A DNA stretch of 64,000 bases from Candidatus Tectimicrobiota bacterium (GCA_016192455.1 JACPUC010000002.1:62001-126000); one strand, 5' to 3'; shown: positions 9,467 to 47,422, counted from the stretch's first letter. Program-made: numbers and translations. The notes: a model not told the origin generated them from the sequence alone.

Positions 9467-9493
9467 GTGCTGGGCAGCTCCTCCCGGCAACGC

Positions 9494-26947: not shown

Positions 26948-28417
26948 GTGCGCCATGTAGATGAGAGGCTGGGAGGCTTGCGTCGTTCCCGCTGCGGGCT
27001 TCCCCTCGGCGAGGGGCAACCTGGGGTGGTGGGGAGGGCTGCCTGGCACTGGCTGGGCGTGGCGTGGCTGGGGCTCGTCCTCGCCTCGCCACTGCAGCCG
27101 GCTGCGGTGGCGCAGCCTGTTGCCGATGCCCCCATCATCACCCGGGCCGGGTATGGGCTCTCCTCCCTGACGGTCTCCTCCCTGGAGGGTGGCACGTTCA
27201 CCGTCCAGGCGGAGGTCGTTGGCGGCATCCCGCCCTTGCGGGTGGAGGGGATTCTCGACTTCTCGCGACGTGACGGAACGCCCGACTCGGTGCTCTTCGG
27301 CACGCTGACGGATGCGGACGGCGACGACGTCTACGAACTGCACGTGACGATTACGCCGCGCTCGGTTCCGTCCGGCAGGTTCACGGGTGTGCGGGTGCGG
27401 GTGCAGGATGCAGCCGGGCGCGAGGCCGTTTGGCCGGAGTTCGAGGTGCCGCTCTCACTCCATTCCCTGCGCACCCTGCGCGTTGAGCCGCTTGTCAGCA
27501 ACCTGGCAGTCGGCCAACAGGGGCAGATCACGGTGACGGCCCTCTTCGATAACGGGCAGACGAGCAACGTCTCCGGCAGTGAGTTCGGTACCCGCTACGA
27601 GGTCCATGATCCCAGTATTGCGCGCGTGGATGCCGCCGGCATGCTGACGGCCATCAGCCCTGGGACCACGATCATCACGGTGAGCAACAACAACACCGAC
27701 ATGGTTGCGGCGGTGGTCGTGGAGCGGGACGCCCTCGATCTCGTCGGCCTCACCGTCACTCCCAGCGCGACGGTGACCTTGAACCCCGGCGAGGAGGTGC
27801 AGCTCGTGGTGACCGGGCGCCTGCGCGGGGGCGAGGAACGTAGTCTGGCGGCGGTGGAGAGCACCTCGTATCGCAGCAGCAATGCCGCGGTGGCGCAGGT
27901 GAGCCGCACCGGCTTGGTGCGCGCCATCGCCGGCGGCACCGCCATTATCACGGTCAGCAACGGAGGGTTTGACGATGTCGCCGTGATCGAGGTGTCCGGG
28001 CCTCCGCCAGGCGCCTCGCCCACGGCTCCACCCACGGCTCCGCCCACGGCTCCACCCACGGCTCCACCCACGGCGCCGTCCGCCGACGCCAGCCCGCCGG
28101 CCCCGGAGGCGCCGCCGGCGCCGCCGGCGCCAGACTCCTCGAGCCGTCTCGTTGGGTTCATGGTCACGGCCAGCCAGGGGCTGATCCTGGAGGGCGTGGG
28201 GTTCGAGACCCAGCTCCGCGTTGAGGGGGTCTTTTCGGATAGTTCCGTCGTCGATCTTACCGCAGCGCAAACAGGCACGACCTACCGCGTCTCCGACCCC
28301 GGTGTTGTTGAGGTCACGGCAGACGGTTTACTCCGTTCACGGAATCAGGGCGCGACAGCCGTGACCGTTGAGAACGATGGCGTGGAAACCTCCGTCCCCG
28401 TCGTCGTCCGCTTCTAG
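26948..28417 (+). CDS. secreted protein with bacterial Ig-like (BIG2) domains and a Pro/Thr repeat linker
   Basis: A 489-residue protein. GTG start at 26948 with GAGGAGGGG upstream. A signal peptide seems to run to about residue 56 (hydrophobic WLGVAWLGLVLASPL, then AVAQPVADA). An N-terminal beta domain is followed by three BIG2-like repeats, seen by the recurring pattern of a value-introducing RVDAAGMLTAISPGTTIITVSN, then QVSRTGLVRAIAGGTAIITVSN, and VEVTADGLLRSRNQGATAVTV. The second and third are joined by a linker with five PTAP units encoded by a 12-bp repeat (28022-28081). Such proteins are usually adhesins or cell-surface proteins. No sorting signal is visible at the C-terminus. Confidence 0.75.
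   Translation: MRHVDERLGGLRRSRCGLPLGEGQPGVVGRAAWHWLGVAWLGLVLASPLQPAAVAQPVADAPIITRAGYGLSSLTVSSLEGGTFTVQAEVVGGIPPLRVEGILDFSRRDGTPDSVLFGTLTDADGDDVYELHVTITPRSVPSGRFTGVRVRVQDAAGREAVWPEFEVPLSLHSLRTLRVEPLVSNLAVGQQGQITVTALFDNGQTSNVSGSEFGTRYEVHDPSIARVDAAGMLTAISPGTTIITVSNNNTDMVAAVVVERDALDLVGLTVTPSATVTLNPGEEVQLVVTGRLRGGEERSLAAVESTSYRSSNAAVAQVSRTGLVRAIAGGTAIITVSNGGFDDVAVIEVSGPPPGASPTAPPTAPPTAPPTAPPTAPSADASPPAPEAPPAPPAPDSSSRLVGFMVTASQGLILEGVGFETQLRVEGVFSDSSVVDLTAAQTGTTYRVSDPGVVEVTADGLLRSRNQGATAVTVENDGVETSVPVVVRF
28022..28081 (+). repeat. 12-bp tandem repeat in the Ig-like protein gene
   Basis: The unit ACGGCTCCACCC occurs four times from 28022 to 28069 with a single A-to-G change in the second copy, followed by a degenerate fifth copy. 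It encodes PTAP units of an interdomain linker. It is in frame, so copy-number change would alter linker length without breaking the gene. Confidence 0.8.
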
Positions 28418-28919
28418 CCTGTTTTGGTTCACAACCCCGCCCCAAGGGAGGGCGCCTGTAGGGCCCTCCCTCCCACCTCCCCGCAGAGCCTCGGCTGCGA
28501 GTGGCTCCAAGACCATCCGTGGCGTTGTCCGCTCCTGCGCCGAGGCGTCCCGGCGCCGGGCCTAGCTGCTCAGCCTTCCTACCGCCGCGCGGCGTCTGCC
28601 GCCTGATGCCCGCCAGATTGAGCCGCCGGGCCGAGCTCATCCCCGCATCGCCGGAAACTCCCCAGCCGCGTCGATTGCATTCGAGCCGAGCGCCTTGGTA
28701 GAATGCGCCTGCTTCACAGTCCGTCGCTGTGTAAAGGGGGGAGAGTCGGCGTCTGGCGCCCCCTGAATGCCGGGCGCGGTTGCTGCGCGCGCCCGCGGTC
28801 GGCATCGGGCGGCTGTCGGCAGGCCACCGCCGATGTTCCCGGAGAGCCGCGCTCCTCCTGACGAGCCACGGGGAGGCGCGCGCAAGCGCCGCGGGCGCGG
28901 ACGCGGAGGTATCAAGCTG
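28418..28919. other. gene-free region upstream of the catabolic operon
   Basis: About 500 bases without a supported gene. The only AT-richer patch, 28670-28740, holds a possible promoter (28675-28704). The rest is GC-rich and featureless to my reading. Confidence 0.45.
28675..28704 (+). promoter_or_regulatory. possible promoter for the Fe-alcohol dehydrogenase operon
   Basis: TTGCAT (28675-28680) and TAGAAT (28699-28704) are 18 bases apart. The -10 matches five positions but the -35 only three. It would leave a leader of about 210 bases before 28920. Confidence 0.3.
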
Positions 28920-30083
28920 ATGACGGCGATTCCCTTTCTGTACTCCATGCCGACGCGGATCATTCACGGTCCCGGCTCCCTCGGCCGCCTTGGTGAGGAG
29001 GCAGGTCTTCTCGGGCTGCGCCGGGTGCTGTTGGTGAGCGACCCCGGCGTGCGCAAGGCCGGCCTCGTCGAGCGGGCGCAGGAACCCCTCCAGAAGGCGG
29101 GGATCGCCGCCTCCCTGTTCACCGAGGTGGAAGAGAACCCCTGCATGGCGACGGTGCGGCGAGGCTACGATCTGCTGCGTGCCGAGCGCCTCGAAGGGGT
29201 GATTGTCATCGGCGGCGGCAGCGCCATGTGCGCCGCCAAGGCCATCGCGCTGCTGGGGAGCAACGGCGGAGAGATCAGCGACTACGAAGGGGTGGGAAAG
29301 TTCGCGCTGGCGCCGCTCCCTGTCATCGCGATCCCGACGACGGCGGGGTCCGGCAGCGAGGTGTCGCAATCGTTCATCCTCACCAATGAGGTGCGCAACG
29401 ACAAGTTCACCGTCTCCGGTCCGACGAACTTCCCGAGCATGGCGATCCTCGACGCCGAGTTGCTGATGAGCGTGCCGCCGCGGGTGGCCGTCTTCGCCGG
29501 TCTCGATGCCCTGTCGCATGCCGTGGAGGCCCTGTGGGCGAAGGGCGCCACGCCGATCACCGAGGCGCTCGCCCTGGCGGCGATTCGGAGCATCTTCGCC
29601 AACCTGAGGAGGGCCAGCTTCAGCCCTGATCTGGCTGCGAAGGACGCCATGATCGTCGCCAGCAGCATGGCGAACATGGCCTGCGGCAACTCCGGGCTGG
29701 CGATCGTGCACGCCATCGGGCGCTTCATCGAGTCGCGCTACCACTACCCGCACGGGCAGGTGAACGGCGTCCTCCTCCCCATCGGCATGGACTTCAACCG
29801 CCCCGTTTGCGCGCGCCAGTTCAGCGCCATGGCGCGCGGCCTCTCCACTCGCGCGGGCGACGGCGCGGAGACCGAGGAGCGCCTCGCCGACCGTGCCGCC
29901 GGCCTGGTGCGCGATCTCATGCGCGCGAACGATTTTGCCCTGACGTTCGACCTCCGGCCCCCCGCCGCCGAGCTGCGGCAGATGGCCGAGGCCACCGAGC
30001 GCTACCCGATGACCGCCCGCAATGCCAGGGCGGTGACCGCCGCAGATGCCGAGGCGATGCTGCGGGCAGCCTTCGGCATGTAG
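28920..30083 (+). CDS. iron-containing alcohol dehydrogenase
   Basis: A 387-residue group III (Fe-dependent) alcohol dehydrogenase. The nucleotide-binding region has IVIGGGSAMCAAKAIA near 97-112, and IPTTAGSGSEVSQ near 137-149. The metal site is built from DALSHAVEAL (Asp and His near 197-201) and the IVHAIGRFIE...HYPHGQVN stretch (His near 262 and 276), as in FucO and lactaldehyde/1,3-propanediol dehydrogenases. ATG at 28920 has GGAGGT nine bases upstream. It is the first of seven closely spaced same-strand genes and probably interconverts an alcohol and an aldehyde or ketone with NAD(P). Confidence 0.9.
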   Translation: MTAIPFLYSMPTRIIHGPGSLGRLGEEAGLLGLRRVLLVSDPGVRKAGLVERAQEPLQKAGIAASLFTEVEENPCMATVRRGYDLLRAERLEGVIVIGGGSAMCAAKAIALLGSNGGEISDYEGVGKFALAPLPVIAIPTTAGSGSEVSQSFILTNEVRNDKFTVSGPTNFPSMAILDAELLMSVPPRVAVFAGLDALSHAVEALWAKGATPITEALALAAIRSIFANLRRASFSPDLAAKDAMIVASSMANMACGNSGLAIVHAIGRFIESRYHYPHGQVNGVLLPIGMDFNRPVCARQFSAMARGLSTRAGDGAETEERLADRAAGLVRDLMRANDFALTFDLRPPAAELRQMAEATERYPMTARNARAVTAADAEAMLRAAFGM

Positions 30084-30205
30084 GGCCGGTCGGCGGGAAT
30101 CGCTCCCGGTCGCGCCGTGGTCGCCGACCTCGCGTGGCCCTCTTCGAGGGATGAATGGCCGCGCCGTTCCTCCCAGGCGACGTGGCACCCACAACCGAGG
30201 CAGCC

Positions 30206-30835
30206 ATGAAGATCCACGACATCACCGTACCGATAACGACCGGCATGCTCCACTACCCCGGCAGCCCGGCGGTGGAGGTGGCGATCGGCAAGAGCATGGC
30301 GAAAGGTGATCCCGGCAACACCTCGCGGCTCACCTGCAGCGTGCATACCGGCACGCACGTCGACGCGCCGTACCATTACGTCCAGGACGGCGCCCGCATC
30401 GACGAGCTCGACCTCGCCACGCTCATCGGCCCGGCGCGTGTCTTCGAGCTGGACATCGACGGCGAGATCACCCCGGCGCACCTGGCGCGACTCGATCTTG
30501 GCGGGGTCGAGCGAGCCCTCTTCAAGACGAAGAACTCCCACCTCATGTACGAGGCGGAGTTCACCAAGGACTATACCCACTTCGGCGTGGCGGGCTCCGA
30601 GGTGCTTGTGCGCCACGGGCTGCGGTTGCTGGGCATCGACTACATCTCCGTGGAGGGCTATGGGAACCCGAACTCGCCGGCCCATAAGGTCCTGCTCGGC
30701 AGCGGCATGATCGTCCTCGAGGGGATCGACCTGCGGACCATCGCCCCGGGGGACTACCAGCTCATCTGTCTGCCGCTGAAGATCGCCCGCGGCGACGGCG
30801 CCCCGGCGCGCGTCGTGCTCGTCGACGAGAACTGA
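30206..30835 (+). CDS. cyclase-family hydrolase (kynurenine formamidase-like)
   Basis: A 209-residue member of the metal-dependent 'cyclase' family (PF04199), which includes bacterial kynurenine formamidase and isatin hydrolase. The hallmark HTGTHVDAPYHY at residues 47-58 supplies the zinc/manganese ligands. Other conserved parts are RVFELDID and VEGYGNPNSPAHKVLL near 151-166, which carry the C-terminal His. The ATG at 30206 opens with the typical KIHDITVPIT strand. Family members open cyclic amides or hydrolyse formamides; in this operon it might open a ring or hydrolyse an amide intermediate (inference). Confidence 0.88.
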   Translation: MKIHDITVPITTGMLHYPGSPAVEVAIGKSMAKGDPGNTSRLTCSVHTGTHVDAPYHYVQDGARIDELDLATLIGPARVFELDIDGEITPAHLARLDLGGVERALFKTKNSHLMYEAEFTKDYTHFGVAGSEVLVRHGLRLLGIDYISVEGYGNPNSPAHKVLLGSGMIVLEGIDLRTIAPGDYQLICLPLKIARGDGAPARVVLVDEN

Positions 30836-30870
30836 GCCGTCCCGGGCTTTGCATACAGGGCGGAGAAGTC

Positions 30871-32472
30871 ATGAACCTTCAAGAGGTCGAGGACCTGACG
30901 CTGGCGCAGGTGGTGGAGCGCAACGCGGCGCGCCGGCCGGAGAAGGTGGCGCTTCTCGCCGGAGCGCGCCGCGTTACCTATCGCGACCTCGTCGCCATGG
31001 CGCACGCCGTGGCCGCTGGGCTGGCGGCGCGCGGCGTCCGCAAGGGGGACCGCGTCGCCATCGCCCTCCTCAACACGCCGGAGATGGTGGCAGCCTACCT
31101 GGGGTGCGCGCAGCTCGGCGCCGTCATTGTCTGGGCCAACCCCGCCTATCGCCACGACGACCTGCGCTTCGTTCTCAGCAACACCCGCGCCAACGCCATC
31201 CTGGCGCCGCGCCAGGCGGGCGACTTCAACTTCCTCGGCATGGTGCAGGAGCTGCGGCGGGAGCTGCCGGACCTGAGCCTCATCGTGGCCGAGAGCGGCG
31301 AGACCGCCGCTGACCTCAGCCTCGAGGCGCTCATCACGTCGCACCTGGGGGAGCCGGCGCCGGCCGTCGAGATTGATGTGCATGCCGACATCCTGTACCT
31401 CCAGCACACCTCCGGCACCACCGGCGTGCCGAAGGCGGCGGTGCACACGAACGCGCAGCAGGTGCGCAACGTCGTGGCGGTGATGAACTCGTACCGCGGC
31501 ACCGAGGAGGATGTCTACCTCGGCCACCTGCCCTTCTACCACACCTTCGGGCGCACCTGCATCCTTGACGTGGCGCTCATGTCGGGCGCCGCCTGCGTCC
31601 TCCAGGAGGCCTTCCAGCCGGCGGAATCCCTGCGCCTCATGGCGGAGCACCGCGTCACCATCCAGCACTGCGCGCCGACGCACCTCATCCTGGAGCTGAA
31701 CGTGCCGGACTTCCCGCGCTACGACCTGAGCGCCCTGCGCACCGGCTACGTCGCCGGCTTCGTCTGCCCGGTCGAGACGTTCAAGCGCGCTTGCGCGGCG
31801 ATGGGTTGCCATTACCTCGGCGCCTGGGGGTCTTCGGAGTCCATCGTCGGCTTCGCCAGCGACTACGAGCGCGACACCCTCGAGCAGCGCGCCACCACCG
31901 TCGGCCAGCCTCTCGAGGGCTTCGAGTTCAAGATCATCGACGAGGCCGGCGCCAGCCTACCGCCGGGGCGCGACGGGGAGCTCTGCGTGCGCTCCTACTC
32001 CGTTCTCCCCTTCTATTGGGAGAACCCCGCGGAGACCGCCCGCCAGCTTGATGCCGACGGCTGGCTGCGCATGGGTGACCTGGCGGTGGTGGGCGAGGCG
32101 CAGCGCCTGCGCATCCTGGGGCGCCTCAAGGAGGTCGTCAACCGCGGCGGCATGAAAATCTACCCGAGCGAACTGGAGACGCTCCTCGACAAGCACCCGA
32201 AGGTACGGGAGGTGTGCATCATCGCCACGCCGAACCCGGTGCTCGGCGAGAACGTTTGCGCCTGCATCGTCCCCGGCGGCGGCGACAAACCGAAGCTTGC
32301 GGAGCTGCGGGCCTACCTTGCCGAGCATGTCGCCCGCTACAAGCTGCCCGACGAGCTCTGTCTCTTCGAGGAGTTCCCGCGCCTCTCCGGCGGCGTCAAG
32401 CTGCGCAAGTTCGGCGCCGGCGGCATCCAGGAGATGGCGATGAAGAACGAAAAGCGCGAGCGCTGGCGCTAG
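30871..32472 (+). CDS. AMP-dependent acyl-CoA synthetase/ligase
   Basis: A 533-residue ANL-superfamily enzyme that activates a carboxylic acid to acyl-AMP and then acyl-CoA. Motif A3 reads QHTSGTTGVPKAA at about residues 174-186; GAWGSSESIVG near 317-327 is the A5-like motif; MGDLAVVGE near 401 holds the ATP-binding Asp; GRLKEVVNRGGMKIYPSE near 417-434 is the hinge motif A8, which includes the expected Arg-Gly-Gly and Lys. It begins 35 bases after the cyclase gene with GGAGAAG before the ATG. The substrate is unknown, probably an aromatic or medium-chain acid. Confidence 0.9.
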   Translation: MNLQEVEDLTLAQVVERNAARRPEKVALLAGARRVTYRDLVAMAHAVAAGLAARGVRKGDRVAIALLNTPEMVAAYLGCAQLGAVIVWANPAYRHDDLRFVLSNTRANAILAPRQAGDFNFLGMVQELRRELPDLSLIVAESGETAADLSLEALITSHLGEPAPAVEIDVHADILYLQHTSGTTGVPKAAVHTNAQQVRNVVAVMNSYRGTEEDVYLGHLPFYHTFGRTCILDVALMSGAACVLQEAFQPAESLRLMAEHRVTIQHCAPTHLILELNVPDFPRYDLSALRTGYVAGFVCPVETFKRACAAMGCHYLGAWGSSESIVGFASDYERDTLEQRATTVGQPLEGFEFKIIDEAGASLPPGRDGELCVRSYSVLPFYWENPAETARQLDADGWLRMGDLAVVGEAQRLRILGRLKEVVNRGGMKIYPSELETLLDKHPKVREVCIIATPNPVLGENVCACIVPGGGDKPKLAELRAYLAEHVARYKLPDELCLFEEFPRLSGGVKLRKFGAGGIQEMAMKNEKRERWR

Positions 32473-32650
32473 GCTGCCGTTGCAGGACGGCGATTCCTCC
32501 GTGTTTTCAGATCGAGAGGGTGCGAGGGAACCGTGTCCCCTCGCGCACCCCGCTTACGCGGGCTGCTGCGCAGCTCGCGGCAATCGCGTGCGCCCATTCC
32601 CTGAAGAATGCGAGCGGGGTTTGCCGGCTTCTCCCTGGGCGCAGACCGCC

Positions 32651-33424
32651 ATGCAGCTTCACCGCCGCTCCGTCGAGGTTGAGCCTGGGGAGAGCGTGAG
32701 CCTGTCCGTGGCGCTGCCGGCGGCGTGGCCCGCGCCCCGGACGCTCGTCGTCCTGGCTCATGGCGCCGGGAACGACATGCGGCAGCCGCTCCTCGTCTTT
32801 CTCCAGGAGCGCCTGCCGGCGCACCGTGTGGCCGTGGCCACCTTCAACTTCCTCTACACTGAGCAGGGACGCCGCGCGCCGGATCGTGGGCCGCGCTTGG
32901 AGGCGTGTTACCGCGCCGTGCTGGCGGCCCTCCGGGGCGATGCCGCGCTGCGTCCCGAGCGGCTGATCATCGGCGGCAAGTCGATGGGAGGACGCATCGC
33001 CTCCCACCTCGCGGCAGAGGGCGAGGCCGCGGCGCCAGCGGGCGCGAGCGCCGCGATCGTGGCGCGAGGTGAGGCGGGCTGGCTCCACGGCCTCCTCTTC
33101 CTCGGCTATCCGCTCCACCCCGCCGGCAAGCCGGAGCGCCTGCGCACCGCGCACCTGCCCCTGATCGAGCAGCCGATGCTCTTCCTCAGCGGCAGCCGCG
33201 ACCGTCTCTGCGAGATGGAGCTGTTGCGCCGCACCCTGGAGAGCCTGCAGGCGCCCCGTCGTCTCCACCTCATCGACGAGGGAGACCACTCGTTCAGGGT
33301 TCCAAAGAGCACCGGCAGGGATCAAGCGCAAGTGTTCGAGGAGATTCTCCAGGTCGTCGTGAGCTGGCTTGCGGGTCTCTCTCCTGCGTCCAGCCGGCGG
33401 CGCAGCAAAGGTCGCGGCCGCTAA
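32651..33424 (+). CDS. alpha/beta hydrolase (TEX30/KANL3-like)
   Basis: A 257-residue alpha/beta hydrolase. The oxyanion loop is in LAHGAGNDM (residues 34-42). The nucleophile elbow GGKSMGGR near 110-117 holds the Ser; SGSRDRLC near 184-191 holds the acidic residue; and EGDHSF near 211-216 holds the His. The arrangement fits the TEX30/KANL3-like subgroup (Abhydrolase_11). The ATG at 32651 is chosen because homology begins a few residues after; upstream sequence is not conserved in character. It may cleave an ester or CoA thioester made in the same pathway. Confidence 0.78.
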   Translation: MQLHRRSVEVEPGESVSLSVALPAAWPAPRTLVVLAHGAGNDMRQPLLVFLQERLPAHRVAVATFNFLYTEQGRRAPDRGPRLEACYRAVLAALRGDAALRPERLIIGGKSMGGRIASHLAAEGEAAAPAGASAAIVARGEAGWLHGLLFLGYPLHPAGKPERLRTAHLPLIEQPMLFLSGSRDRLCEMELLRRTLESLQAPRRLHLIDEGDHSFRVPKSTGRDQAQVFEEILQVVVSWLAGLSPASSRRRSKGRGR

Positions 33425-33459
33425 CCCGGCAGCTTCGGTCCGATGAGGAGCCGCAGCGG

Positions 33460-35007
33460 ATGTCTGGGACTGGAGGGGGTGAGAGGGGCGGCCATCGAGG
33501 AGCGAGTCGGGGCCGCGGGGAGCAGCCGCGGAGGTCCGTCGGGGGCGCCTGGCTGGGGCAAGCCCTGGTCCTTGGAGGCCCAGGGTCGCGGGGGAGCGTT
33601 GCTCGTTCGCTCGTCCTCCTCGGCCTGGCGCTGGGGCTCTGCCTCTTGATCGTCCTGCTGCCGCAGCCCAATGGGCTTTCCCTGCCGGCTCAACGGGCGT
33701 TCGCCGGGGCGACCTTCATCCTCGTCCTCTGGATCACCCGGGCGATTCCCGTGCCGGCAAGCGTCCTCCTGCTGGGGCTCCTCCTGCGGGGCCTGGGGGC
33801 GGTGCCGTCGCTCGGCGCTGGGTTCGGCGGCTTTGCCTCACCCGTCGTTGCCTTCCTGCTTGGCATCTTTGGCATCGCCCATGCCGTGGTGAGCACGGGG
33901 CTGGCGCGGCGCTTCTCCCGCCTTCTGCTTCGCCGGGCGCGAGGCGGCGTCGTCCGCCTCTATGTCCAGCAACTGTTCCTCTTTTGCGGCGGCGCCTACG
34001 TGGTGCCCTCGGCGATCACCCGCAGCAGCATCATGATCCCCGTCTACCGCGATGTGTTGCGGCGGCTCCGGTCGGGCTCCGGCGGGGAGCCGGGGAGCCG
34101 CCTGGGGCGCCTGGTGATGCTGCCGCATGCGGTGCTCAATGCCGCCGCGTCGTCGGCGCTGCTGACGGGCGGGCTGGCGTCGATCACGGCGGCGTCGCTC
34201 CTGGGCGGCGTGAGCTGGCTGCGCTGGTTCGCTGCCATGGCCCTGCCGTACTACCTCTTCATCGCCGCCGCTGGCGGGCTTCTCCTGATGTGCTTCGGCG
34301 GCGCCTCGGGGGACGCCGCGCCGGCAGCCGGCGTGGCTGACGGACCCGAGCCGCGCCGGGCGCCATGGAGCCGCGGCGAGGCGCAGGCGCTGGTGACCCT
34401 GACTGCGGTGAGCCTCCTGTGGGTGACGGATTTCCTGCACGGCTTCCATCCCGCCTTTCCCGCCCTGCTGGCTGCGGCAGCGTTGCTGGCGCCCCGGCTC
34501 GGGGTGGCCGAGTGGCGCGATTTTCTCCGCCAGGTCTCATGGTCACAGCTCTTCCTCGTGGCGGGGTCGTTGACCCTGGCGCGGGTTCTCGTCGAGACGG
34601 GCGCAGCCGCATGGCTGGCGGCGCGGCTGTTCAGCAGCCTGGGGGCCGGCAGCTACCCGGTCTGGGCGATGGCGCTCGTCATCCTCCTCCTCAGCGCCCT
34701 GGTGCATGCCATCGTGCCCAACGTTCCAGGATCGCTGGCCGTGCTCATCCCGGTCCTCACACCGCTCGCCGCGCGGCTGGGGCTGCCTCCCCTGGTTGCC
34801 GGGTTCATCATGACGATGGCGGTGGATACCCTCGTCTTCTACCCCTACCAGTCGGTGTTGGCGCTCATGGTCTACGAGACCGGCTACGTGCGCACGATCG
34901 ACTTGGCGCTCAGCGGTATGCTCTTCATGGTGCTGCTGATGGCCCTCGTGCTGCTCCTCTTCCTGCCCTTCTGGGGGCTGGTGCTGGAGCGTTGGGGGGC
35001 GGCGTGA
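33460..35007 (+). CDS. DASS/SLC13-family anion:sodium symporter-like transporter
   Basis: A 515-residue polytopic membrane protein with 11-13 hydrophobic segments, starting with ATG at 33460 nine bases after GAGGAG. The first 45 residues are hydrophilic, Gly/Arg-rich and atypical. The helices ARSLVLLGLALGL, WITRAIPVP and FASPVVAFLLGIFGIA, and the C-terminal ALVHAIVPNVPGSLAVLIPVLTP segment fit the DASS/CitT/ArsB superfamily, with SNT-like motifs partly degenerate. It likely imports the dicarboxylate or aromatic acid used by the cluster. It follows the hydrolase gene by 36 bases. Confidence 0.8.
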   Translation: MSGTGGGERGGHRGASRGRGEQPRRSVGGAWLGQALVLGGPGSRGSVARSLVLLGLALGLCLLIVLLPQPNGLSLPAQRAFAGATFILVLWITRAIPVPASVLLLGLLLRGLGAVPSLGAGFGGFASPVVAFLLGIFGIAHAVVSTGLARRFSRLLLRRARGGVVRLYVQQLFLFCGGAYVVPSAITRSSIMIPVYRDVLRRLRSGSGGEPGSRLGRLVMLPHAVLNAAASSALLTGGLASITAASLLGGVSWLRWFAAMALPYYLFIAAAGGLLLMCFGGASGDAAPAAGVADGPEPRRAPWSRGEAQALVTLTAVSLLWVTDFLHGFHPAFPALLAAAALLAPRLGVAEWRDFLRQVSWSQLFLVAGSLTLARVLVETGAAAWLAARLFSSLGAGSYPVWAMALVILLLSALVHAIVPNVPGSLAVLIPVLTPLAARLGLPPLVAGFIMTMAVDTLVFYPYQSVLALMVYETGYVRTIDLALSGMLFMVLLMALVLLLFLPFWGLVLERWGAA

Positions 35008-35085
35008 GCGTGAAAACGGGGCGAGCGGGGCGCCGGACGCTGGCCGCGGCATCGGCTTGCGGCCACCACCGCGAAAGGGAGATCG

Positions 35086-36537
35086 ATGTACAACGATCTG
35101 CGCCATTTCCTCAAGGTCCTTACAGGGCAGGGCGAGATCGTGCAAGTGTCGCGGCAGGTGTCCATCGTCCAGGAGATCGGCGATATCTGCCGCCGCGTCA
35201 GCGACATGGAGGGTCCGGCTCTGCTGTTCACGAATCTGGCTGGCTACCCCGGCTGGAGCCTCTGCGCCAATGCGGTTGGGACGCTGCGGCGCACCGCCCT
35301 GGCCATTGAGTCGACGGTCGAGGCGATGGTGGCGGAGTACGCGCGACGCATCGAGGGGGGCAAGCTCCTGCCGTCCGTGACCGTTCCGGCCCACGCCGCT
35401 CCCTGCAAGGAGGTCATCCTGCGCGACGTTGACCTGACGAAGCTCCCCATCCCCACCTGGCACCTGAAGGATGGCGGCCCCTACATCTCGTTCGGCGTGC
35501 AGATCAGCAAAGACCCCGACAGCGGCGTACCGAACGCTTCGATTGTGCGGCAGATGGTGCTGGGCCCGAAGCGTCTCGGCATCCTGCTGCTGCCGGGCAA
35601 GCACACGATGATCCACTTCGAGAAGCAGCGGCAGCGCGGACGCGACCTGGAACTGGCGGCGGCGATCGGGGTGGAGCCGACCGTCACAGCGGCGGCCCTG
35701 CACAGCGGCTCCCTCGATGAGGACGAGTTCGCGGTCTGCGGGGCCTTGCGCGGCCAGCCGCTGGAGATGGTGCGCTGCGAGACCATCGACGTGGAGGTGC
35801 CGGCGCATGCCGAGCTGGTGATCGAGGGCCGCCTCCTGCACAATGAGACCGCCGCGGAGGGGCCGTTCGGCGAGTTCACCGGCTACTACACGAAACGCAC
35901 CGACACCAATCCGGCCATGGAAGTGACCTGCATCACGCACCGCCGCAACCCCATCTTCCAAGGGACCTACGAGGGAAAACCGCCGAACGAGGACAACATC
36001 TTCCACATCCTGCCGTACTCTGCGTCGGTCTACGCCGAGGCGTCGCGGCTCTGTCCGAACCTCGTCTCCTTCGCCTTCGACCCCTACGGGTCCGGCTTCA
36101 TCTACGCGGTGGCGGCCATCGACAAGCTCTACCCCGGCCATGCGCACCACGCCATGCACGCCGTCTGGGCGACGCAGAGCGGCAAGTACATCAAGGTCCT
36201 CATCGTGGTCGATAAGGACATCAACATCTTCGATCACCGCGCCGTAACGTGGGCCATCGCCACGCGCTTCCAGCCGGGGCGCGACCTGGTGCTTGATCCG
36301 CGCGGCATCGGCTCGCAGCTCGACCCGGCCGCCTGGCCGAAGTCGGGCATCGGCGGCTCCATGGGGATTGATGCCACGCAGAAGTGGGAGCAAGAGGGCG
36401 GCCCGCCGAAAGGGAGCGAGCAGGAGCTCATCAGCCACGCCGCAAGCCCCTTCTGGCGGGAGATCGAGCGCCTGGGGTTGGGCTCCTACCTCGGCGTGGA
36501 CCTCAGCCGCTGGCAGGGGCGACGGGTGGGCATGTGA
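35086..36537 (+). CDS. UbiD-family (prenylated-flavin) decarboxylase
   Basis: A 483-residue UbiD-family protein. The fingerprint EGPFGEFTGYYTKRTD at about 263-278, the FQGTYEGKPPNED stretch near 294-306, and VDKDINIFDHRAVTWAIATRF near 377-397 mark the conserved core. The last motif has the Asp of the E-R-E type network close to the flavin. It shares low identity with the other UbiD in the window (9589-10995) and belongs to a separate branch. The operon context with an acyl-CoA ligase and an anion transporter argues for decarboxylation of an imported aromatic or enoic acid rather than ubiquinone synthesis. It lacks a local UbiX. Confidence 0.9.
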   Translation: MYNDLRHFLKVLTGQGEIVQVSRQVSIVQEIGDICRRVSDMEGPALLFTNLAGYPGWSLCANAVGTLRRTALAIESTVEAMVAEYARRIEGGKLLPSVTVPAHAAPCKEVILRDVDLTKLPIPTWHLKDGGPYISFGVQISKDPDSGVPNASIVRQMVLGPKRLGILLLPGKHTMIHFEKQRQRGRDLELAAAIGVEPTVTAAALHSGSLDEDEFAVCGALRGQPLEMVRCETIDVEVPAHAELVIEGRLLHNETAAEGPFGEFTGYYTKRTDTNPAMEVTCITHRRNPIFQGTYEGKPPNEDNIFHILPYSASVYAEASRLCPNLVSFAFDPYGSGFIYAVAAIDKLYPGHAHHAMHAVWATQSGKYIKVLIVVDKDINIFDHRAVTWAIATRFQPGRDLVLDPRGIGSQLDPAAWPKSGIGGSMGIDATQKWEQEGGPPKGSEQELISHAASPFWREIERLGLGSYLGVDLSRWQGRRVGM

Positions 36538-36578
36538 GCGCCTCCCTGCGAACGCTGCCGACAGGCAGTGAAGGAGCC

Positions 36579-37709
36579 ATGGCCGACAGCGGCAGCCCGC
36601 TGGAATTGGCCAGGGAGAGCGCAACGGAGGAGGAGATCAGGGTGGCTCGGCGATCATTCCCCCGAGGGGTTACCCTTCTGAATCGGGCGGCGGTGTATGA
36701 GGGCTACACCCTCTACGCCACCCTCGGCGGCTCGGGCACGGTCTACCTGGTCGATGTCGAGGGGAAGGCGGCGCACCAGTGGAAGATGCCCTACCCGCCG
36801 GGCAACTATGGCCGACTCCTCGACAACGGCAATCTCCTCTACGCCTGCCGGGTGCCGGGGGCGCTGATGGAGTTCGGCGGCAAGGGGGGGCTGCTGCTGG
36901 AGGTGGATTGGCAGGGGCGGGAGGTCTGGCGCTACGAGGACCCGGCCATGCACCATGACTTCAGCCGCATGCCGAACGGCAACACCGTGACGCTCTGCCG
37001 GGAGAAAGTGCCGGCCGAGAAGGCGGCGTTGATCCGCGGCGGCCGGCCCGGGACGGAGGACGGCGGCGGCGCCATCTGGGCGGATGTCTTCCGCGAGGTC
37101 ACGCCGGCCGGCGAGGTGGCGTGGGAGTGGCACGCCCACGAGCGCTTGAGCTTCGAGGAGGACGTCCTCTGCCCCCTCTGCCCGCGCCATGAGTGGGGGC
37201 ACGCCAACGCCGTCCTGGCCCTGCCGGATGGCAACCTCATGACCTGCTTCCGCCTGCTGAACTTCGTCGGCATCATCGACCATGGCAGCGGTGCCTGGAG
37301 CTGGCGTTGGGGCAAGGAGGAGCTTGGCCATCCGCACGATCCCAGCCGGCTCGAGAACGGCAACGTGCTGATCTTCGATAACGGCCTGCACAACAGCGAT
37401 TGGCCGCGGTCACGAGTTGTGGAGGTGAATCCACAGAACAACGAAATAGTCTGGCACTACGAGGACGAGCCTCCCTTCAACTTCTGGAGCAACTTCATCA
37501 GCGGCGCCCAGCGCCTGCCGAACGGCAACACGCTGATCTGCGAGGGGATGTGGGGGCGGCTCTTCGAGGTGACGCGCGCCGGCGAGGTAGTGTGGGAGTT
37601 CTACAACCCGGAGTACGCCCCCTATCGCAACTTCGGCCCCTGCAATATGGTGTTTCGCGCCTACCGCTACGGTCCGGAGCACCCGGCCCTGCGGGGGCGG
37701 CTGGGGTAA
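36579..37709 (+). CDS. arylsulfotransferase (ASST)-like beta-propeller protein
   Basis: A 376-residue protein with repeated beta-propeller blades that end in an Asn-Gly-Asn turn, e.g. RLLDNGNLLY, RMPNGNTVTL, ALPDGNLMTC, RLENGNVLIF and RLPNGNTLIC. His-rich starts such as MHHDF, HANAV and GHPHDP precede the blades. This is the pattern of the Arylsulfotran_2/ASST families. There is no signal peptide, so it seems cytoplasmic, unlike the periplasmic AssT of Enterobacteria. The ATG at 36579 follows AAGGAG by only two bases; a GTG at 36534 overlapping the previous stop may be the real coupled start. Function could be sulfate transfer to or from a phenol (inference). Confidence 0.78.
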   Translation: MADSGSPLELARESATEEEIRVARRSFPRGVTLLNRAAVYEGYTLYATLGGSGTVYLVDVEGKAAHQWKMPYPPGNYGRLLDNGNLLYACRVPGALMEFGGKGGLLLEVDWQGREVWRYEDPAMHHDFSRMPNGNTVTLCREKVPAEKAALIRGGRPGTEDGGGAIWADVFREVTPAGEVAWEWHAHERLSFEEDVLCPLCPRHEWGHANAVLALPDGNLMTCFRLLNFVGIIDHGSGAWSWRWGKEELGHPHDPSRLENGNVLIFDNGLHNSDWPRSRVVEVNPQNNEIVWHYEDEPPFNFWSNFISGAQRLPNGNTLICEGMWGRLFEVTRAGEVVWEFYNPEYAPYRNFGPCNMVFRAYRYGPEHPALRGRLG

Positions 37710-38101
37710 GCGCGTGAGGTATGCCGCGGGGGACCGCCTCCAACGCTCCTCCTGGGGCACCCGCAATACCAGCGCACGCTTTCACAGAGTGCTCCACCGT
37801 CTTACCACCATCGCCTCCAGCAAGACGATCACCTCCTGCTGCACCTCTTCGTCCTACCAATCCAGTGTCCAAGTCATGAGGGTCGGCAGAGAAGAACTGA
37901 GGGTAAGCACGACGGAACGGGGTCTCCGACGGCATCGGCACCTCGGAGCGGATCAAAGGGCGCGGCTTGCGGCGGCAAGCGATTCGTGCCATGCTCGACC
38001 ACCACCCGGGAGATGGAAAGTTTGTCTGCTGCCGGGATGAACGGCGGGGAGGTTATGGAATGGTGCGCCAGCGTGTGGCTGGAAGCAAGGAGGCGTCCAC
38101 C
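37710..38101. other. gene-poor junction between the catabolic operon and an AT-rich insertion
   Basis: About 390 bases with no supported gene. Base composition drops from GC-rich to AT-rich near 38100-38170. An AAGGAGG ribosome-site-like sequence at 38087-38093 precedes an ATG at 38102; see the methyltransferase entry. Confidence 0.45.
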
Positions 38102-38244
38102 ATGACTGGTCATGTGAGGTCCAACAAATCCTCCTCGATCCATTCGACAATGCCGATCGTGAGGTAAGCCCTTTCCAAAATATCTTCTATCGAGTCTTCA
38201 ATATTTGCAATAATCTCTTCCCCAATCTTCGAGTTGATACGAGG

Positions 38245-39033
38245 TTGCTGAGGGCTCACTTTGTAGTCGAAGACGTGCTGCAACATGGTATGGAATTAGA
38301 CCACCAGAGTTCGCCAAGCAGGTTGTTGTCAAATCTCTTCTGGAAAATGCTTTCTTGGCAAAAGATCCTTGCGGAACTCAATGAAATAAGGATCCTTGAT
38401 ATCGGTTGTTGGAGTGGAACATATGCAGAAACGTTAGAGCAATTTATTGGACCTCCTCTTAGCGGATATACTGGTCTTGACGTTGCACCCTCTGAGAATT
38501 GGCAGTCGCTGATGCGTGGCCGGGCGCATTTCTCGTTTGCTACGTATGATGGCAGGAGTCTGCTGCATGCGATACCGCGGGGAACAACCTTTATTATGAG
38601 CCAGTCGGCTCTTGAGCATATCGAAGAGGATGTGGGGATATTCACGGAGATCAATGAGTACATTGAATCCTTCGGGCGGCCCGTTCTCCAGGTTCATTTG
38701 TTCCCGAGCCAAGTCTGCCACAGTTTGTATCCCTGGCATGGCATACGACAGTATACCCCCCGCACCGCATCAAAACTTCTTCACGCGCTTGCTGGTGAGT
38801 TTTACGCCATCCTCTTTACCTTAGGCGGCAAGGCGTGCAACACGCTGCATTACAACTACATTACAAAACCATTCTTCCGCGAACAGCGTGATGATTTGCG
38901 ATACGTAAAGCCGGATGAATATGCCAGGGAATTAGAGGCTGCGGTCCTCGAAGATATGCAGGCGCCGAGCGGCGATCCATCTTTTTATGCCCTGGTGATC
39001 CATCATAACTTCACGGCAAGCATCGTCACTTGA
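38245..39033 (+). CDS. class I SAM-dependent methyltransferase, AT-rich, possibly 5'-frameshifted
   Basis: The 262 residues from a TTG at 38245 hold a Rossmann methyltransferase core: motif I ILDIGCWSGTYAETL at about residues 49-63, a GLDV acidic end of strand 2 near 77, and a post-motif region MSQSALEHIEEDV near 117-129, where ALEHI matches the motif 4 pattern. The same frame is open back to 38041 and reads like real protein (QQILLDPFDNADREVSPF) but has no start codon there. A good AAGGAGG-ATG lies at 38087-38104 in another frame, so a one-base loss near 38105-38125 may have split the gene. The composition is far more AT-rich than the flanks, a sign of transfer. The C-terminal part does not help to fix the substrate. 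Confidence 0.6.
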   Translation: MLRAHFVVEDVLQHGMELDHQSSPSRLLSNLFWKMLSWQKILAELNEIRILDIGCWSGTYAETLEQFIGPPLSGYTGLDVAPSENWQSLMRGRAHFSFATYDGRSLLHAIPRGTTFIMSQSALEHIEEDVGIFTEINEYIESFGRPVLQVHLFPSQVCHSLYPWHGIRQYTPRTASKLLHALAGEFYAILFTLGGKACNTLHYNYITKPFFREQRDDLRYVKPDEYARELEAAVLEDMQAPSGDPSFYALVIHHNFTASIVT

Positions 39034-39196
39034 CGGCGCTGACGTGCTGGGACTACGCATTTTGCAGCCGCCAGAGTTGCTGCGGCACCGTTGTGGAGCT
39101 GACGCCAGCCGCGCGGCCGGGTGCCGGAGTGGTGTGGAATGGGAGGGCCGCGGCGCGAACGGGGTGTCGCCGAGACAGCTTGGTGGGAGGAATGCG

Positions 39197-40624
39197 CTAC
39201 GGCGCCCGCAGCTCGCGCTCCTGGTGGGCGCTGTGCAGATCGGTGAGGTAGCGGTTGCGCCACACCTGGGAGGTGGAGGTGGTGACGACCTTGTAGAGCG
39301 CCTCCCAACGTTTACGCCGCTGCCGCAGCGGCATCTCGAGGGCCTCTTTCAAGGCTCGGGCCGTGCCGTCGATGTCGTACGGGTTGACGATGAGCGCCTC
39401 TGTGAGCTCTTCGGCGGCGCCGCAGAAGCGCGACAGGACGAGAACGCCCGGCTCCCTGGTCTGCGAGGCGATGTACTCCTTCGCCACCAGGTTCATGCCG
39501 TCGCGCAAAGGCGTGACGAGGCAGACGTCCGCCACCCGGTAGATGGCGGCCAGCTCTTCCTGGCGAAAGGTCCGGTAGAGGTAGCGCACGGGAATCCAGT
39601 CGTGGTCGGAGAAACGCCCGTTGATATTACCGACAAGGCGGTCGACCTGTTCCTTCTGCTGCACGTACTCCGGCACATCGGTCCGCGAGGGGGCGGAGAT
39701 TTGCACCAGGCAGACCTTGCCGCGCCATGAGGGGAAACGCTCCAGGAGCCGCTGAAAGGCCTGCAGGCGTACGGGGATGCCCTTCGTGTAGTCGAGGCGG
39801 TCCACGCCGATGACGATGTGCCGGTCATTGACGCTCTTGCGCAAGGTGATGCCGCGCTGGATTCCCTCCGAGGTGCTTGCCCAGGTCCAGAAACGCTCCG
39901 GCTCGATGCCGATGGGGTAGACGCCGACGCGCGCCACGCCCTGGCTCGTGCGGAGGTAGGTGCCATCGAAGCCGCCGCCGAGCTCGAGCAGCGCGGTCTC
40001 CAGGAAGTTCTTCTGGTAGAGCTTGGTGTGAAAGCCGATGAGGTCGTACGACAGGAGGGCTTCGAGGAACTGCCGCGCCCAGGGGAGGGTGGCGTAGATT
40101 TCGGGAGCCGGAAAGGGGATGTGCAGGAAGAAGCCCATGCACCCTTCCCAGCCAAGATTATGGAGCTCGACGCCGAGCTGCAGGAGGTGGTAGTCGTGCA
40201 CCCACACGTCATCATCCGGTCGAAGCTCGGAGATGAGCGCCTCGGCGAAGCGCCGATTCACGCGCCGGTAAGCGCGATACTCCTCCTCCCGCAGCACCAT
40301 GAGGGCGGGGAAGCCGTGGAAGAGAGGCCAGATGGCGCGGTTCGAAAAGCCGAAGTAGTAGCGCTTCACCTCCTCGACCGAGAGATCGAGCATGCAGAGC
40401 TCGATGCTGGAGTCGGTCCAGCGGCGCAGTTCCGTCCTCGATCGCTGCGGCGTGGTCTGGCCGCTCCAGCCAAACCACAAGCCGCCGGTCTCCTCCAGCG
40501 CCGGCACCAGGGCGCTCACCAGGCCCCCCGCCTGCCGCGCGCCGGCGCCCTGCCCTGCCTCCTGCTCCATGAAGTTGGGCACCCGGTTGGAGACGACGAC
40601 GAGCCGACGACGCGGAGCCTCCAT
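39197..40624 (-). CDS. otsA: alpha,alpha-trehalose-phosphate synthase (UDP-forming)
   Basis: A 475-residue GT20 glycosyltransferase that makes trehalose 6-phosphate from UDP-glucose and glucose 6-phosphate. Key parts are the N-terminal VVVSNRVP (residues 8-15), RxxGGL-like QAGGLVSAL near 32, WVHDYHLLQL near 139-148, HIPFPAPE near 165-172, VDRLDYTKGIP near 275-285, and the C-terminal DGMNLVAKEY near 379-388, whose Asp and Glu bind the donor. The ATG at 40624 has GAGAGGAG ten bases upstream; a longer start adds unlike sequence. No otsB phosphatase gene is adjacent. Trehalose would serve as osmolyte or stress protectant. Confidence 0.93.
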   Translation of the reverse strand: MEAPRRRLVVVSNRVPNFMEQEAGQGAGARQAGGLVSALVPALEETGGLWFGWSGQTTPQRSRTELRRWTDSSIELCMLDLSVEEVKRYYFGFSNRAIWPLFHGFPALMVLREEEYRAYRRVNRRFAEALISELRPDDDVWVHDYHLLQLGVELHNLGWEGCMGFFLHIPFPAPEIYATLPWARQFLEALLSYDLIGFHTKLYQKNFLETALLELGGGFDGTYLRTSQGVARVGVYPIGIEPERFWTWASTSEGIQRGITLRKSVNDRHIVIGVDRLDYTKGIPVRLQAFQRLLERFPSWRGKVCLVQISAPSRTDVPEYVQQKEQVDRLVGNINGRFSDHDWIPVRYLYRTFRQEELAAIYRVADVCLVTPLRDGMNLVAKEYIASQTREPGVLVLSRFCGAAEELTEALIVNPYDIDGTARALKEALEMPLRQRRKRWEALYKVVTTSTSQVWRNRYLTDLHSAHQERELRAP

Positions 40625-42435: not shown

Positions 42436-43464
42436 ATGCGGCACCTCCAAAGGTCCAGGAGACGGAGGGTCATCGGCGGCATTGCAACGTGGCTGGTGCT
42501 GCTGGCATGCGTGGCGGTTGCCCCTGCCACCGCGACGCCGCTCGTCGTGCGCCTCGGCTGGATCACCGCGCCGGCGGAGATCATGCCGATGGTCTACATG
42601 CACCCGACGATGCTCAAGCACTACGGCAAGTCCTATACCGTCGAGCTGACGCGCTTCCGCGGCTCGGGGCCGCCGGTGGCCGCCCTGGCGGCCAAGGAGG
42701 TCGACCTCGCCGCGCTCTCCTATGCCAGCTTTGCCAACGCCATCCTCAACGCCAAGCTGGACCTGCGCGTTGTGGCCGATGACCTGCAACTGCGCAAGGA
42801 GAACTTCAGCGGCGCGTTCGTCGTCAAGCCGGATTCCGCTATCACGTCGGTGGCGCAGATTCGGGGCAAGACCGTCGGCGTGCAGTCGTTCGGCTCCGGG
42901 GCCGATCTCTCCCTGCGCATGATGATGCGGCGTCACGGCCTGGAGGCGTTTCGCGACTACAACATCATCGAGGTGGGTATCCCCAACCAGCTTGCCTATC
43001 TTCAGGAGGGGAAGCTGGACGTCGCCAACCTCACCCAGCCGTTCTACTCACGGGCCCTGGCCCAGAAGAAGGGGCGACCGCTCTTCTTCAACGCCGATTC
43101 CCTCGGCAATACGCAGTTCGTCTTCTACGTGGCTCGGCGGGAGTTCCTCGACCGCCATCGCGCTGTGCTGGGGGACTTCTTCGAGGACTTCCTGCGCGGC
43201 TGGCGCTGGGTGCTCGCGCCGGCGAACCGTGATGCGGTGCTGGACCTGGCGGCCAGGGTCACAAAGCAACCGCGCGCCATCTACGAGTCGTGGATGCTGA
43301 CGAAGCTCGACTACTTCAGGGACGCCGATGCTCTCCCAGACATCGCGGCTCTCAATACCAGCCTGGCGCAGCTCAAGGAGATGGGCTTCACCAAGGAGAG
43401 CTTCGACGCTACGCCATACCTCGACCTCTCGTTCATCAAGCAAGCGGCCGAGCGGTTGCGCTGA
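42436..43464 (+). CDS. ABC transporter solute-binding protein, NMT1/SsuA-like, secreted
   Basis: A 342-residue binding protein with a basic N-terminus and a signal peptide (hydrophobic segment residues 13-29, cleavage near TATA). AAAGGAGAG precedes the ATG at 42436. The body has LDLRVVADD, VAQIRGKTVGVQSFGSGADLSLR near 135-155 and LAYLQEGKLDVA near 180, typical of the nitrate/sulfonate/riboflavin-precursor binding class. No permease or ATPase gene is next to it, so it is either an orphan or shares the transporter encoded at 3748-5625. The downstream racemase and hydantoinase genes make a cyclic amide or related compound a plausible ligand (inference). Confidence 0.82.
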   Translation: MRHLQRSRRRRVIGGIATWLVLLACVAVAPATATPLVVRLGWITAPAEIMPMVYMHPTMLKHYGKSYTVELTRFRGSGPPVAALAAKEVDLAALSYASFANAILNAKLDLRVVADDLQLRKENFSGAFVVKPDSAITSVAQIRGKTVGVQSFGSGADLSLRMMMRRHGLEAFRDYNIIEVGIPNQLAYLQEGKLDVANLTQPFYSRALAQKKGRPLFFNADSLGNTQFVFYVARREFLDRHRAVLGDFFEDFLRGWRWVLAPANRDAVLDLAARVTKQPRAIYESWMLTKLDYFRDADALPDIAALNTSLAQLKEMGFTKESFDATPYLDLSFIKQAAERLR

Positions 43465-45174: not shown

Positions 45175-45442
45175 CTTTTGTCAAACGGGTTGCCTGTCCC
45201 GCGACGAGATGGGGCAGGCAGGGAGATCAGCCCACCACCCAGCTCGCCACGCCGCCGTGCCCTCCCTTCGTCTCCCCGCCGCGTTCTCATAACCGCTCAA
45301 TAGTCAACTTCTTTACTTTTTTCTGGCCTTTCTCCTTCGCCTCGGGTATAGTCAAGCCTTCGCGCCGGGTGCAGGCTGTTGAGGAGCTGGCCGGGGACGA
45401 CGCCGGCAGGTGCTCCACCTCGACGACGCGGGAGAGGCAATG

Positions 45443-47422
45443 ATGCTGGTGGTGGGAATAGATATCGGCGGCACGTTCACGGACTTCATCACCTTTGATG
45501 GCAAGGAGATGCGCACCCACAAGGTGCTGAGCACGCCGTCGAACCAGTCCATGGCGGTGCTGCAAGGGCTGCGCGAGCTCGGTGTGCTGGGCGAGCCCGA
45601 CCTCGAAATCGTGCACGGCTCCACGGTGGCGACGAATGCCCTGCTGGAGCGCAAAGGCGGCAAGGTCGCCCTGATCACCACGCAGGGATTCGAGGACGTG
45701 CTGGAGATCGGGCGCCAGAACCGCCCCAGCCTCTACGACCTCAACGTGCAGCGCCTGCCGCCGTTGGTCCCCTCGGAGCGCCGACTCGGGGTGCCGGAAC
45801 GCACGATTTACACCGGCGAGGTCATCCAGCCGCTCGACGAGGCGGCGGCCCGCCGGGTGGCGCGACAGGTGAAGGACCTCGGCGTCGACTCCCTGGCCAT
45901 CTGCTTGCTCTTCTCTTACGCCAACCCCTCCCACGAGCAGCGCCTGGTGGAGCTGTGCAAGGAGGCCGGCATCAAGGGCTTCATCAGCGCCTCGCACCAA
46001 ATCCTGCCGGAGTACCGCGAGTATGAGCGCACCAGCACCACGGTGGTGAACGCCTACGTGGTGCCGGTGATGGACCGCTACCTCTCGCGCCTCTCCGCCG
46101 AGCTGGGCGCCACGCCGCTGCGCATCATGCAATCGAACGGCGGCGCCATCTCCGCCGAGACGGCGAAGACCGAGTCGATCCGCACGGTCCTCTCCGGTCC
46201 CGCCGGCGGCGTGGTGGGAGCCCTCTTCCTGGCGCGGCTCTCCGGCTACGACCACATCATCAGCTTCGATATGGGCGGCACCTCGACCGACGTCTCCCTT
46301 TGCGAAGGCGGCATCAACACCACCACCGAGTCGGTGGTCGCCGGCAATGCCGTGCGCGTGCCGATGATCGAGCTGCACACCGTCGGCGCCGGCGGCGGCT
46401 CCATCGCCCGCCTCGATGAAGGTGGCGCCCTGCGCGTCGGACCGGAGAGCGCCGGCGCCGACCCCGGCCCCATCTGTTACGGCAAGGGGACGGAGATCGC
46501 CGTCACCGACGCGAACGTCGTCCTCGGCCGCATCAGCCCCGATCACTTCCTGGGCGGCCGCATGAAGCTGCACGACGAGGCGGCGCGCCGCGCCGTGGAC
46601 GAGCTGGCGCGCGCCATGCGCATGAGCCGCGAGGCGGTCGCCGAGGGCATCGTGCGGGTGGCCAACGCCACCATGCAGCGCGCCATCCAGGTCATGTCCG
46701 TGGAGCGCGGCCACGACCCGCGCGATTTCGCCCTCCTCTCCTTCGGCGGCGCCGGCGGGCTGCATTGCTGCGAGCTGGCCGAGAACCTCTCCATCCCGCG
46801 CCTCATCATCCCGAACCACGCCGGCCTCCTCTCCGCCTTCGGCATGATCACCTCCGACGTGGTGAAGGACTACTCGCAGACCGTTCTCATCAACACCGCC
46901 GCAACAAGCCAGGCCGACCTCGCGAAGCTCTTCGAGCCGCTCGATCAGCGCGGCCTCGACGAGATGCTGGCCGAGGGGCTGCCGCGCCAGCGCCTACGCT
47001 TCGCGCGCAGCCTCGACATGCGCTACATCGGCCAGAGCTTCGAGATCAGCGTGCCGTGGATGGACGACTACATCGCCGAGTTCCACCGGCTGCACGGGGT
47101 GCGCTACGGCTACAGCAACCCGAAACGACCCACCGAGATCGTCAACCTGCGGCTGCGCACGAGCGGCGAGGTGACGCCGCCGGAGTTCCCGCGGCTGCCG
47201 GCGGGATCCGCCGATCCCGGCGCCGCGCGCCTCGGCGCCAGCCCCGTCTACTACCGCGGCGCCTGGCACGACACGCCGCTCTACGAGCGCGAGCGCCTGC
47301 AGGCCGGCAACACCATCGACGGCCTCGCCGTGGTCTACGAGAAGACCGCCACGACCCTCATCACCCCCGGCTTCCAGGGCGTCGTCGACGAAGTGGGCAA
47401 CATCATCCTGACGCGGAAGTGA
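45443..47422 (+). CDS. hyuA: hydantoinase/oxoprolinase family protein, A subunit
   Basis: A 659-residue HyuA-type subunit of ATP-dependent amidohydrolases (N-methylhydantoinase, 5-oxoprolinase, acetophenone carboxylase). It has the ASKHA-type N-terminal phosphate loop GIDIGGTFTDF at residues 5-15, GSTVATNALLERKG near 57-70, the central FDMGGTSTDVSL near 274-285, and GAGGGSIA near 316-323. I take the second of two adjacent ATGs because it leaves five bases after GGAGAGG. It is cotranscribed with hyuB, 53 bases downstream. The substrate is a cyclic amide, imide or ketone; the pair cannot be narrowed by sequence alone. Confidence 0.9.
   Translation: MLVVGIDIGGTFTDFITFDGKEMRTHKVLSTPSNQSMAVLQGLRELGVLGEPDLEIVHGSTVATNALLERKGGKVALITTQGFEDVLEIGRQNRPSLYDLNVQRLPPLVPSERRLGVPERTIYTGEVIQPLDEAAARRVARQVKDLGVDSLAICLLFSYANPSHEQRLVELCKEAGIKGFISASHQILPEYREYERTSTTVVNAYVVPVMDRYLSRLSAELGATPLRIMQSNGGAISAETAKTESIRTVLSGPAGGVVGALFLARLSGYDHIISFDMGGTSTDVSLCEGGINTTTESVVAGNAVRVPMIELHTVGAGGGSIARLDEGGALRVGPESAGADPGPICYGKGTEIAVTDANVVLGRISPDHFLGGRMKLHDEAARRAVDELARAMRMSREAVAEGIVRVANATMQRAIQVMSVERGHDPRDFALLSFGGAGGLHCCELAENLSIPRLIIPNHAGLLSAFGMITSDVVKDYSQTVLINTAATSQADLAKLFEPLDQRGLDEMLAEGLPRQRLRFARSLDMRYIGQSFEISVPWMDDYIAEFHRLHGVRYGYSNPKRPTEIVNLRLRTSGEVTPPEFPRLPAGSADPGAARLGASPVYYRGAWHDTPLYERERLQAGNTIDGLAVVYEKTATTLITPGFQGVVDEVGNIILTRK

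Follow-up and report, generated by a model that had tools for sequence, protein, structure and literature searches.

A run of seven genes on one strand of a 64,000-nucleotide window (the whole stretch of DNA analyzed here, positions 62001-126000 of contig C5) joins known enzyme families in a combination found in no other genome and no paper that we searched, and it probably represents a real, coherent catabolic operon. The genome that carries it (G000; 4.46 Mb, 88% complete, 31 contigs) is further distinguished by an expansion of UbiD genes, described below. The reading that we favor, with about an even chance of being right, is that the run is transcribed as one unit for the catabolism of a (hetero)aromatic carboxylate, following the logic of the hmf (furan) pathway but in a different variant. 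UbiD enzymes are sought after for (de)carboxylation chemistry, but few of them have been characterized; this operon links one to a CoA ligase, a pair of hydrolases and a short arylsulfate sulfotransferase (ASST)-like protein that is apparently cytosolic and in which the active site is kept. If this reading is true, it is a sign of a large route of aromatic-acid breakdown in uncultured bacteria that has been little explored. The seven genes, with domains named by Pfam and NCBIfam, are as follows.

28920-30083, + strand: iron-containing alcohol dehydrogenase (Fe-ADH), 387 aa; PF00465 (1.9e-46) and PF25137; ATG start with GGAGG upstream
30206-30835 (alternative ATG at 30155), + strand: cyclase-family metal hydrolase, kynurenine-formamidase-like, 209 aa; PF04199 (5.3e-19)
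30871-32472, + strand: acyl-/aryl-CoA ligase, 533 aa; PF00501 (6e-82)
32651-33424 (TTG at 32480 possible), + strand: alpha/beta-hydrolase, Abhydrolase_11 / DLH-like, 257 aa; PF20408 (3.8e-50)
33460-35007, + strand: divergent DASS/SLC13-type anion carrier, 515 aa; PF00939 (1.8e-36) and PF03600 (1.9e-26)
35086-36537, + strand: UbiD-family prFMN-dependent decarboxylase, 483 aa; PF01977, PF20695 and PF20696; TIGR00148 at 364 bits, above its cut-off
36579-37709, + strand: short ASST-like protein (putative propeller), 376 aa; PF05935 (9.2e-14)

The open reading frames span positions 28920-37709 of the window, and all seven are supported as coding by codon usage, with a gene caller trained on the genome itself. 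With the starts chosen here the intergenic gaps are 122, 35, 178, 35, 78 and 41 bases, two of which become shorter with the alternative starts at 30155 (cyclase) and 32480 (alpha/beta-hydrolase), and on both sides the run is flanked by about 500 bases in which no gene is called (28418-28919 and 37710-38244). An earlier note on this DNA had described seven co-directional genes, tightly spaced (35 to 180 bases) on a single strand; that layout and the identities given to the genes are confirmed. Its title omitted the seventh gene, the alpha/beta-hydrolase. The same note had placed a possible promoter at the front only, but no plus-strand sigma-70-type promoter was found in a scan of 28000-39300, and terminator-like sites across that interval did not rise above the level of shuffled sequence. 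Spacing and strand suggest that the seven genes are co-transcribed. The gene directly upstream of the run (27059-28417) encodes a protein in which bacterial Ig-like (Big_2) domains are combined with a PTAP-type repeat linker.

The operon UbiD possesses the three domains of the family and an intact R155-E258-E263 triad, of the R-E-(D)E form. Its closest solved structure is PtHmfF (6h6x/6h6v, 281 bits), followed by E. coli UbiD, whose TYTGRPPDE loop is resembled by TYEGKPPNE in the operon protein. With the canonical UbiD and VdcC hydroxyarylic acid decarboxylases it thus shares domains, triad and a TYxGxPPxE loop of the E. coli UbiD type, yet it scores well under the cut-offs of both models (301 bits vs 650 for VdcC, 256 vs 788 for E. 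coli-type UbiD). Phthaloyl-CoA decarboxylase was considered as an identity and rejected at 68 bits. In the alignment with PtHmfF, whose numbering here is our own, H296 and R304 correspond to D303 and Y311 of the operon enzyme. We take R304 to be the second of two residues that set furan-dicarboxylate use. The HmfF histidine (H297 in the numbering of the HudA paper) is key to furan specificity (PMC7976604). Both positions being replaced, the operon UbiD lacks the HmfF residues for furan-dicarboxylate, which argues against an hmf operon.

Comparison with the hmf cluster itself leads in the same direction. The cluster for HMF, furfural and furoate in Cupriavidus basilensis HMF14 and Pseudomonas umsongensis GO16 has in common with the operon a UbiD decarboxylase, an aryl-CoA ligase, a transporter and an alcohol-oxidizing enzyme (PMC12064950), and the core of its furoate part consists of UbiD, the aryl-CoA ligase and the molybdenum (Mo) hydroxylase HmfABC (PMC12064950). 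The operon, however, has neither HmfABC nor HmfE, carries an Fe-ADH instead of HmfH/PsfG, and adds the cyclase-type hydrolase, the alpha/beta-hydrolase and the ASST-like protein. We therefore regard as very improbable a true hmf-type operon, which would convert furan-2,5-dicarboxylate to furoate and then furoyl-CoA: the match to PtHmfF, the pairing of UbiD with a ligase and the HmfABC-like Mo hydroxylase beside the ligase paralogue would all suit it, but the missing subunits and the D303/Y311 replacements speak against it, as do two UbiD paralogues elsewhere in the genome (C28:42120-43373, L036, and C9:80534-81787, L063) that keep both H296 and R304 and, judged by these residues, are better candidate furan-dicarboxylate (FDCA) decarboxylases.

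A pathway that uses both UbiD and a CoA ligase must involve either two carboxylates, as in hmf logic, or carboxylation before activation, as in phenol/benzene logic. In the anaerobic degradation of phenol, benzene and naphthalene the known order is UbiD and then CoA ligase, and a similar reading of the operon would have UbiD carboxylate a phenol or (hetero)arene and the ligase then form the aryl-CoA, an arrangement in which a substrate with a single carboxylate would need both enzymes. The phenylphosphate carboxylase models do match the operon UbiD, at 181-184 bits, but these scores are far under the equivalog cut-offs (469-565), and HmfF and canonical UbiD are closer. Carboxylation-type systems, moreover, usually possess extra subunits or a phosphorylating enzyme, which are absent from the operon, and the anion carrier speaks for a substrate that enters the cell as an acid. 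We consider carboxylation improbable and prefer the two-carboxylate reading, given the distance of the operon UbiD from the phenylphosphate carboxylases.

The remaining catabolic enzymes are recognizable as to family. For the Fe-ADH, the best NCBIfam model is ErcA (254 bits, cut-off 550) and the best PDB match an NAD-dependent methanol dehydrogenase (8zrl); maleylacetate reductase, a weaker match than the methanol dehydrogenase and ErcA types, was rejected. The cyclase-type hydrolase carries the motif HTGTHVDAPYHY and shares with the kynurenine formamidase (KynB)/cyclase family both the HTGTHVDAP metal site, an ordinary active-site motif, and a match to TIGR03035, with 1r61 and KynB structures as PDB matches; the TIGR03035 score (155 bits), however, is below the equivalog cut-off of 223, and no kynurenine genes surround the operon cyclase. 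The CoA ligase finds its best PDB matches among salicylate/DHB-AMP ligases and 4-coumarate-CoA ligase, and the alpha/beta-hydrolase has a GKSMG nucleophile elbow, likewise an ordinary active-site motif. The DASS carrier reaches 153 bits with TIGR00785 against a cut-off of 198.6, whereas PF00939 exceeds its own. Since the cyclase, ligase, ADH and DASS carrier all fall under the cut-offs of the specific NCBIfam equivalog or subfamily models, no precise substrate can be assigned from them.

The ASST-like protein (376 residues, with no signal peptide evident by eye) differs from E. coli ASST (AssT) in chain length, the latter having 571 residues, and in that the E. coli enzyme is periplasmic and has its own Dsb pair. 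A profile built from an alignment of 15 ASST relatives (A2) nevertheless matches E. coli ASST (3elq) in the PDB, and operon residues H126, H208, N210, R225 and H253 align with E. coli His252, His356, Asn358, Arg374 and His436. The mapping is good for H253, whose block aligns at 27 bits, and suggestive for the rest, the two other blocks reaching only about 4 bits each. In E. coli ASST the active site comprises these five residues and Thr501, and His436 is transiently sulfated (PMC13426309, a 2026 review). Five of the six reported residues are thus kept in the operon protein by alignment, T501 being replaced (I307/S308). H126, N210, R225 and H253 stand in columns that do not vary among the 15 aligned members; H208 is kept in the operon protein, in the second ASST-like protein of this genome, in the L079-L083-type proteins of the phylum of genome G084 and in a haloarchaeal plasmid member (L096), whereas the other aligned members have Gln, Leu or Met at this position. 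Most of the aligned plasmid proteins are without a His356 equivalent. A single-sequence structure model had a pLDDT of 39 and was unusable for the fold. The suggestion in the earlier note of a sulfated phenol as substrate gains support from the kept active-site residues.

On these grounds we can outline how a (hetero)aromatic carboxylate might be processed. The DASS-type carrier would import the anionic aromatic acid; with a sulfated substrate, the ASST-like enzyme, which is apparently cytosolic, would then move sulfuryl off, or between, phenolic hydroxyls by way of a sulfo-histidine. UbiD, with prFMN from the probable single UbiX of the genome, would remove one ring carboxylate, and the ligase would activate the remaining or a side-chain carboxylate, after which the two hydrolases, one a cyclase-type metal enzyme and the other of the alpha/beta type, could open a lactone, amide or thioester arising downstream; the Fe-ADH may oxidize or reduce an alcohol or aldehyde substituent. 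Both the substrate and this order of reactions are inferred. The pathway for an aromatic or cyclic carboxylate that the earlier note had proposed is still the best reading in light of family knowledge and the hmf comparison, but the completeness that it suggested is not borne out: the seven genes include no aldehyde dehydrogenase and no ring-cleaving, ring-reducing or ring-hydroxylating enzyme. Enzymes for ring hydroxylation or cleavage would have to be encoded at other loci of the genome, its 32 Mo hydroxylases being an example.

Paralogous loci in the same genome share single genes with the operon (ligase-UbiD or ASST-UbiD) and never the full set. The operon ligase has a single close paralogue (69%; G000:C1:152386-153993), which adjoins a UbiD gene in a same-strand block ordered SDR - ligase - UbiD - Mo-hydroxylase M/S/L - hydantoinase A. 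The Mo hydroxylase consists of FAD, 2Fe-2S and large subunits and has 4-hydroxybenzoyl-CoA reductase alpha as its best model (618 bits, below the cut-off); the last gene encodes a hydantoinase A / caprolactamase-alpha-like protein, and a convergent UbiD with an ABC transporter lies alongside (G000:C1 ~142.7-154.9 kb; L009:282-10908, L034:14711-16129). In its combination of UbiD, ligase and Mo hydroxylase of the matching type, this block resembles the central part of the hmf cluster for furoate, and it is a candidate pathway for an N- or O-heteroaromatic acid. Genes for hydantoinase/caprolactamase-like alpha and beta subunits also occur in the window, at 45410-49041 and 56284-57954. The genome has only two ASST-like genes, the second being C2:35797-36969 (52% identical to the operon copy), and both are near UbiD genes, at 1.3 kb in the operon and 6.9 kb on C2. 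The C2 UbiD (31% identical) is part of the same-strand run, which also includes NMT1-type substrate-binding proteins, a fumarate-reductase-like flavoprotein and a ferredoxin. An NMT1-type binding protein is encoded in the window as well (42496-43464).

The earlier note had looked to conservation of the gene set beyond its own genome, and none was found in 84,980 GTDB species, in 386 genomes sampled across the domain (this one included) or in the G084 phylum; nor did the open-access literature searched describe a cluster of UbiD and arylsulfotransferase. This absence is weak evidence, because the lineage is without relatives among the genomes searched, G000 being the sole one of its phylum. Individually, the operon UbiD had no relative, and the ligase a single 22% relative, in scans of the GTDB species that need exact short-peptide matches and so may miss near genomes; a ligase profile returned nothing at E <= 1e-110 in the 385 other genomes, and no relative of the operon UbiD was found in the G084 phylum at 1e-95. 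That phylum, which is probably Rokubacteria-like, does contain ASST relatives (43-50%): at E <= 1e-20 they occur in 12 of 94 genomes, in two cases as fragments, with MFS, FAH-like or amidohydrolase-like genes as neighbors and no UbiD beside them. On plasmids, short ASST-like proteins of ~370 aa (L090-L096 and others; 35-39%) often adjoin NrtA/SsuA-type ABC transporters or uracil-xanthine permease, and in some cases sulfatases, but not UbiD. The relatives of ligase and UbiD on plasmids (32-36%) lie, in the few neighborhoods inspected, in settings unrelated to the operon, and those of the cyclase reach 29-36%. As the ASST relatives elsewhere are not beside UbiD, the ASST-like protein may be unrelated to the UbiD step.

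These distributions bear on whether the seven genes form a unit at all. They could instead belong to two or three short units that have nothing to do with each other (ADH-cyclase-ligase, hydrolase-DASS and UbiD-ASST) and share an orientation by chance, a reading consistent with the gaps of 122 and 178 bases, with a set conserved nowhere else searched, with paralogous loci that share one pairing or the other and with the various transporters that accompany ASST relatives. Against this, every gap is below 180 bases, the genes occupy one strand with about 500 bases free at both ends, and all of the enzymes suit small-molecule catabolism. We judge such a mixed neighborhood unlikely, though worth keeping in view, and retain the single catabolic unit as our preferred reading.

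The expansion of UbiD across the genome is more interesting than the operon taken alone, and no report of a UbiD-rich genome was found in the open-access literature searched. At least 41 UbiD loci are present (38 matches with one model and three loci from a second), and 40 of the 42 UbiD reading frames in the regions examined have the triad. Of two flavoprotein matches, we take from length and family knowledge that at C28:55401 to be UbiX-type and the other, in a 447-codon frame, to be CoaBC-like, which leaves the genome with apparently one UbiX. Most of 192 sampled genomes have no UbiD_N domain or one, and four have at least 10: G000 (27), G031 (14), G084 (11) and G086 (10). G031, like G000, is the sole genome of its phylum among those searched. 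Nine of the 32 Mo-hydroxylase large subunits lie within 6 kb of a UbiD gene, as against 3.2 expected under random placement (p ~0.003; of the three distances tried, 4 kb and 8 kb gave p values of 0.02 and 0.014), and eight of these nine are on the strand of the UbiD. The UbiDs of this genome therefore tend toward clusters of the (hetero)aromatic-degradation type, the operon being one among many, and with its numerous UbiD loci, one probable UbiX and 32 Mo hydroxylases the genome offers a catalogue for reading UbiD substrates from context. A long shot, in our estimation, is that the operon would handle a sulfated aromatic carboxylate, a cytosolic PAPS-independent sulfotransferase stripping the sulfate and the acid passing to the prFMN decarboxylase and CoA ligase, as one of dozens of parallel UbiD modules in an organism specialized on decarboxylating aromatic acids. 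Among the other UbiD genes, one within the window (9589-10995) has an R-E-E triad by alignment and a VdcC score of 270 bits (cut-off 650), with branched-chain-type ABC transporter genes and an ETF-quinone oxidoreductase gene as neighbors. Finally, at G000:C9 ~109-112 kb (L064 ~6842-10200) two UbiD genes stand in tandem, the triad being degenerate in the first (R-H-A by alignment) and intact in the second, and they possibly encode a two-subunit (de)carboxylase.
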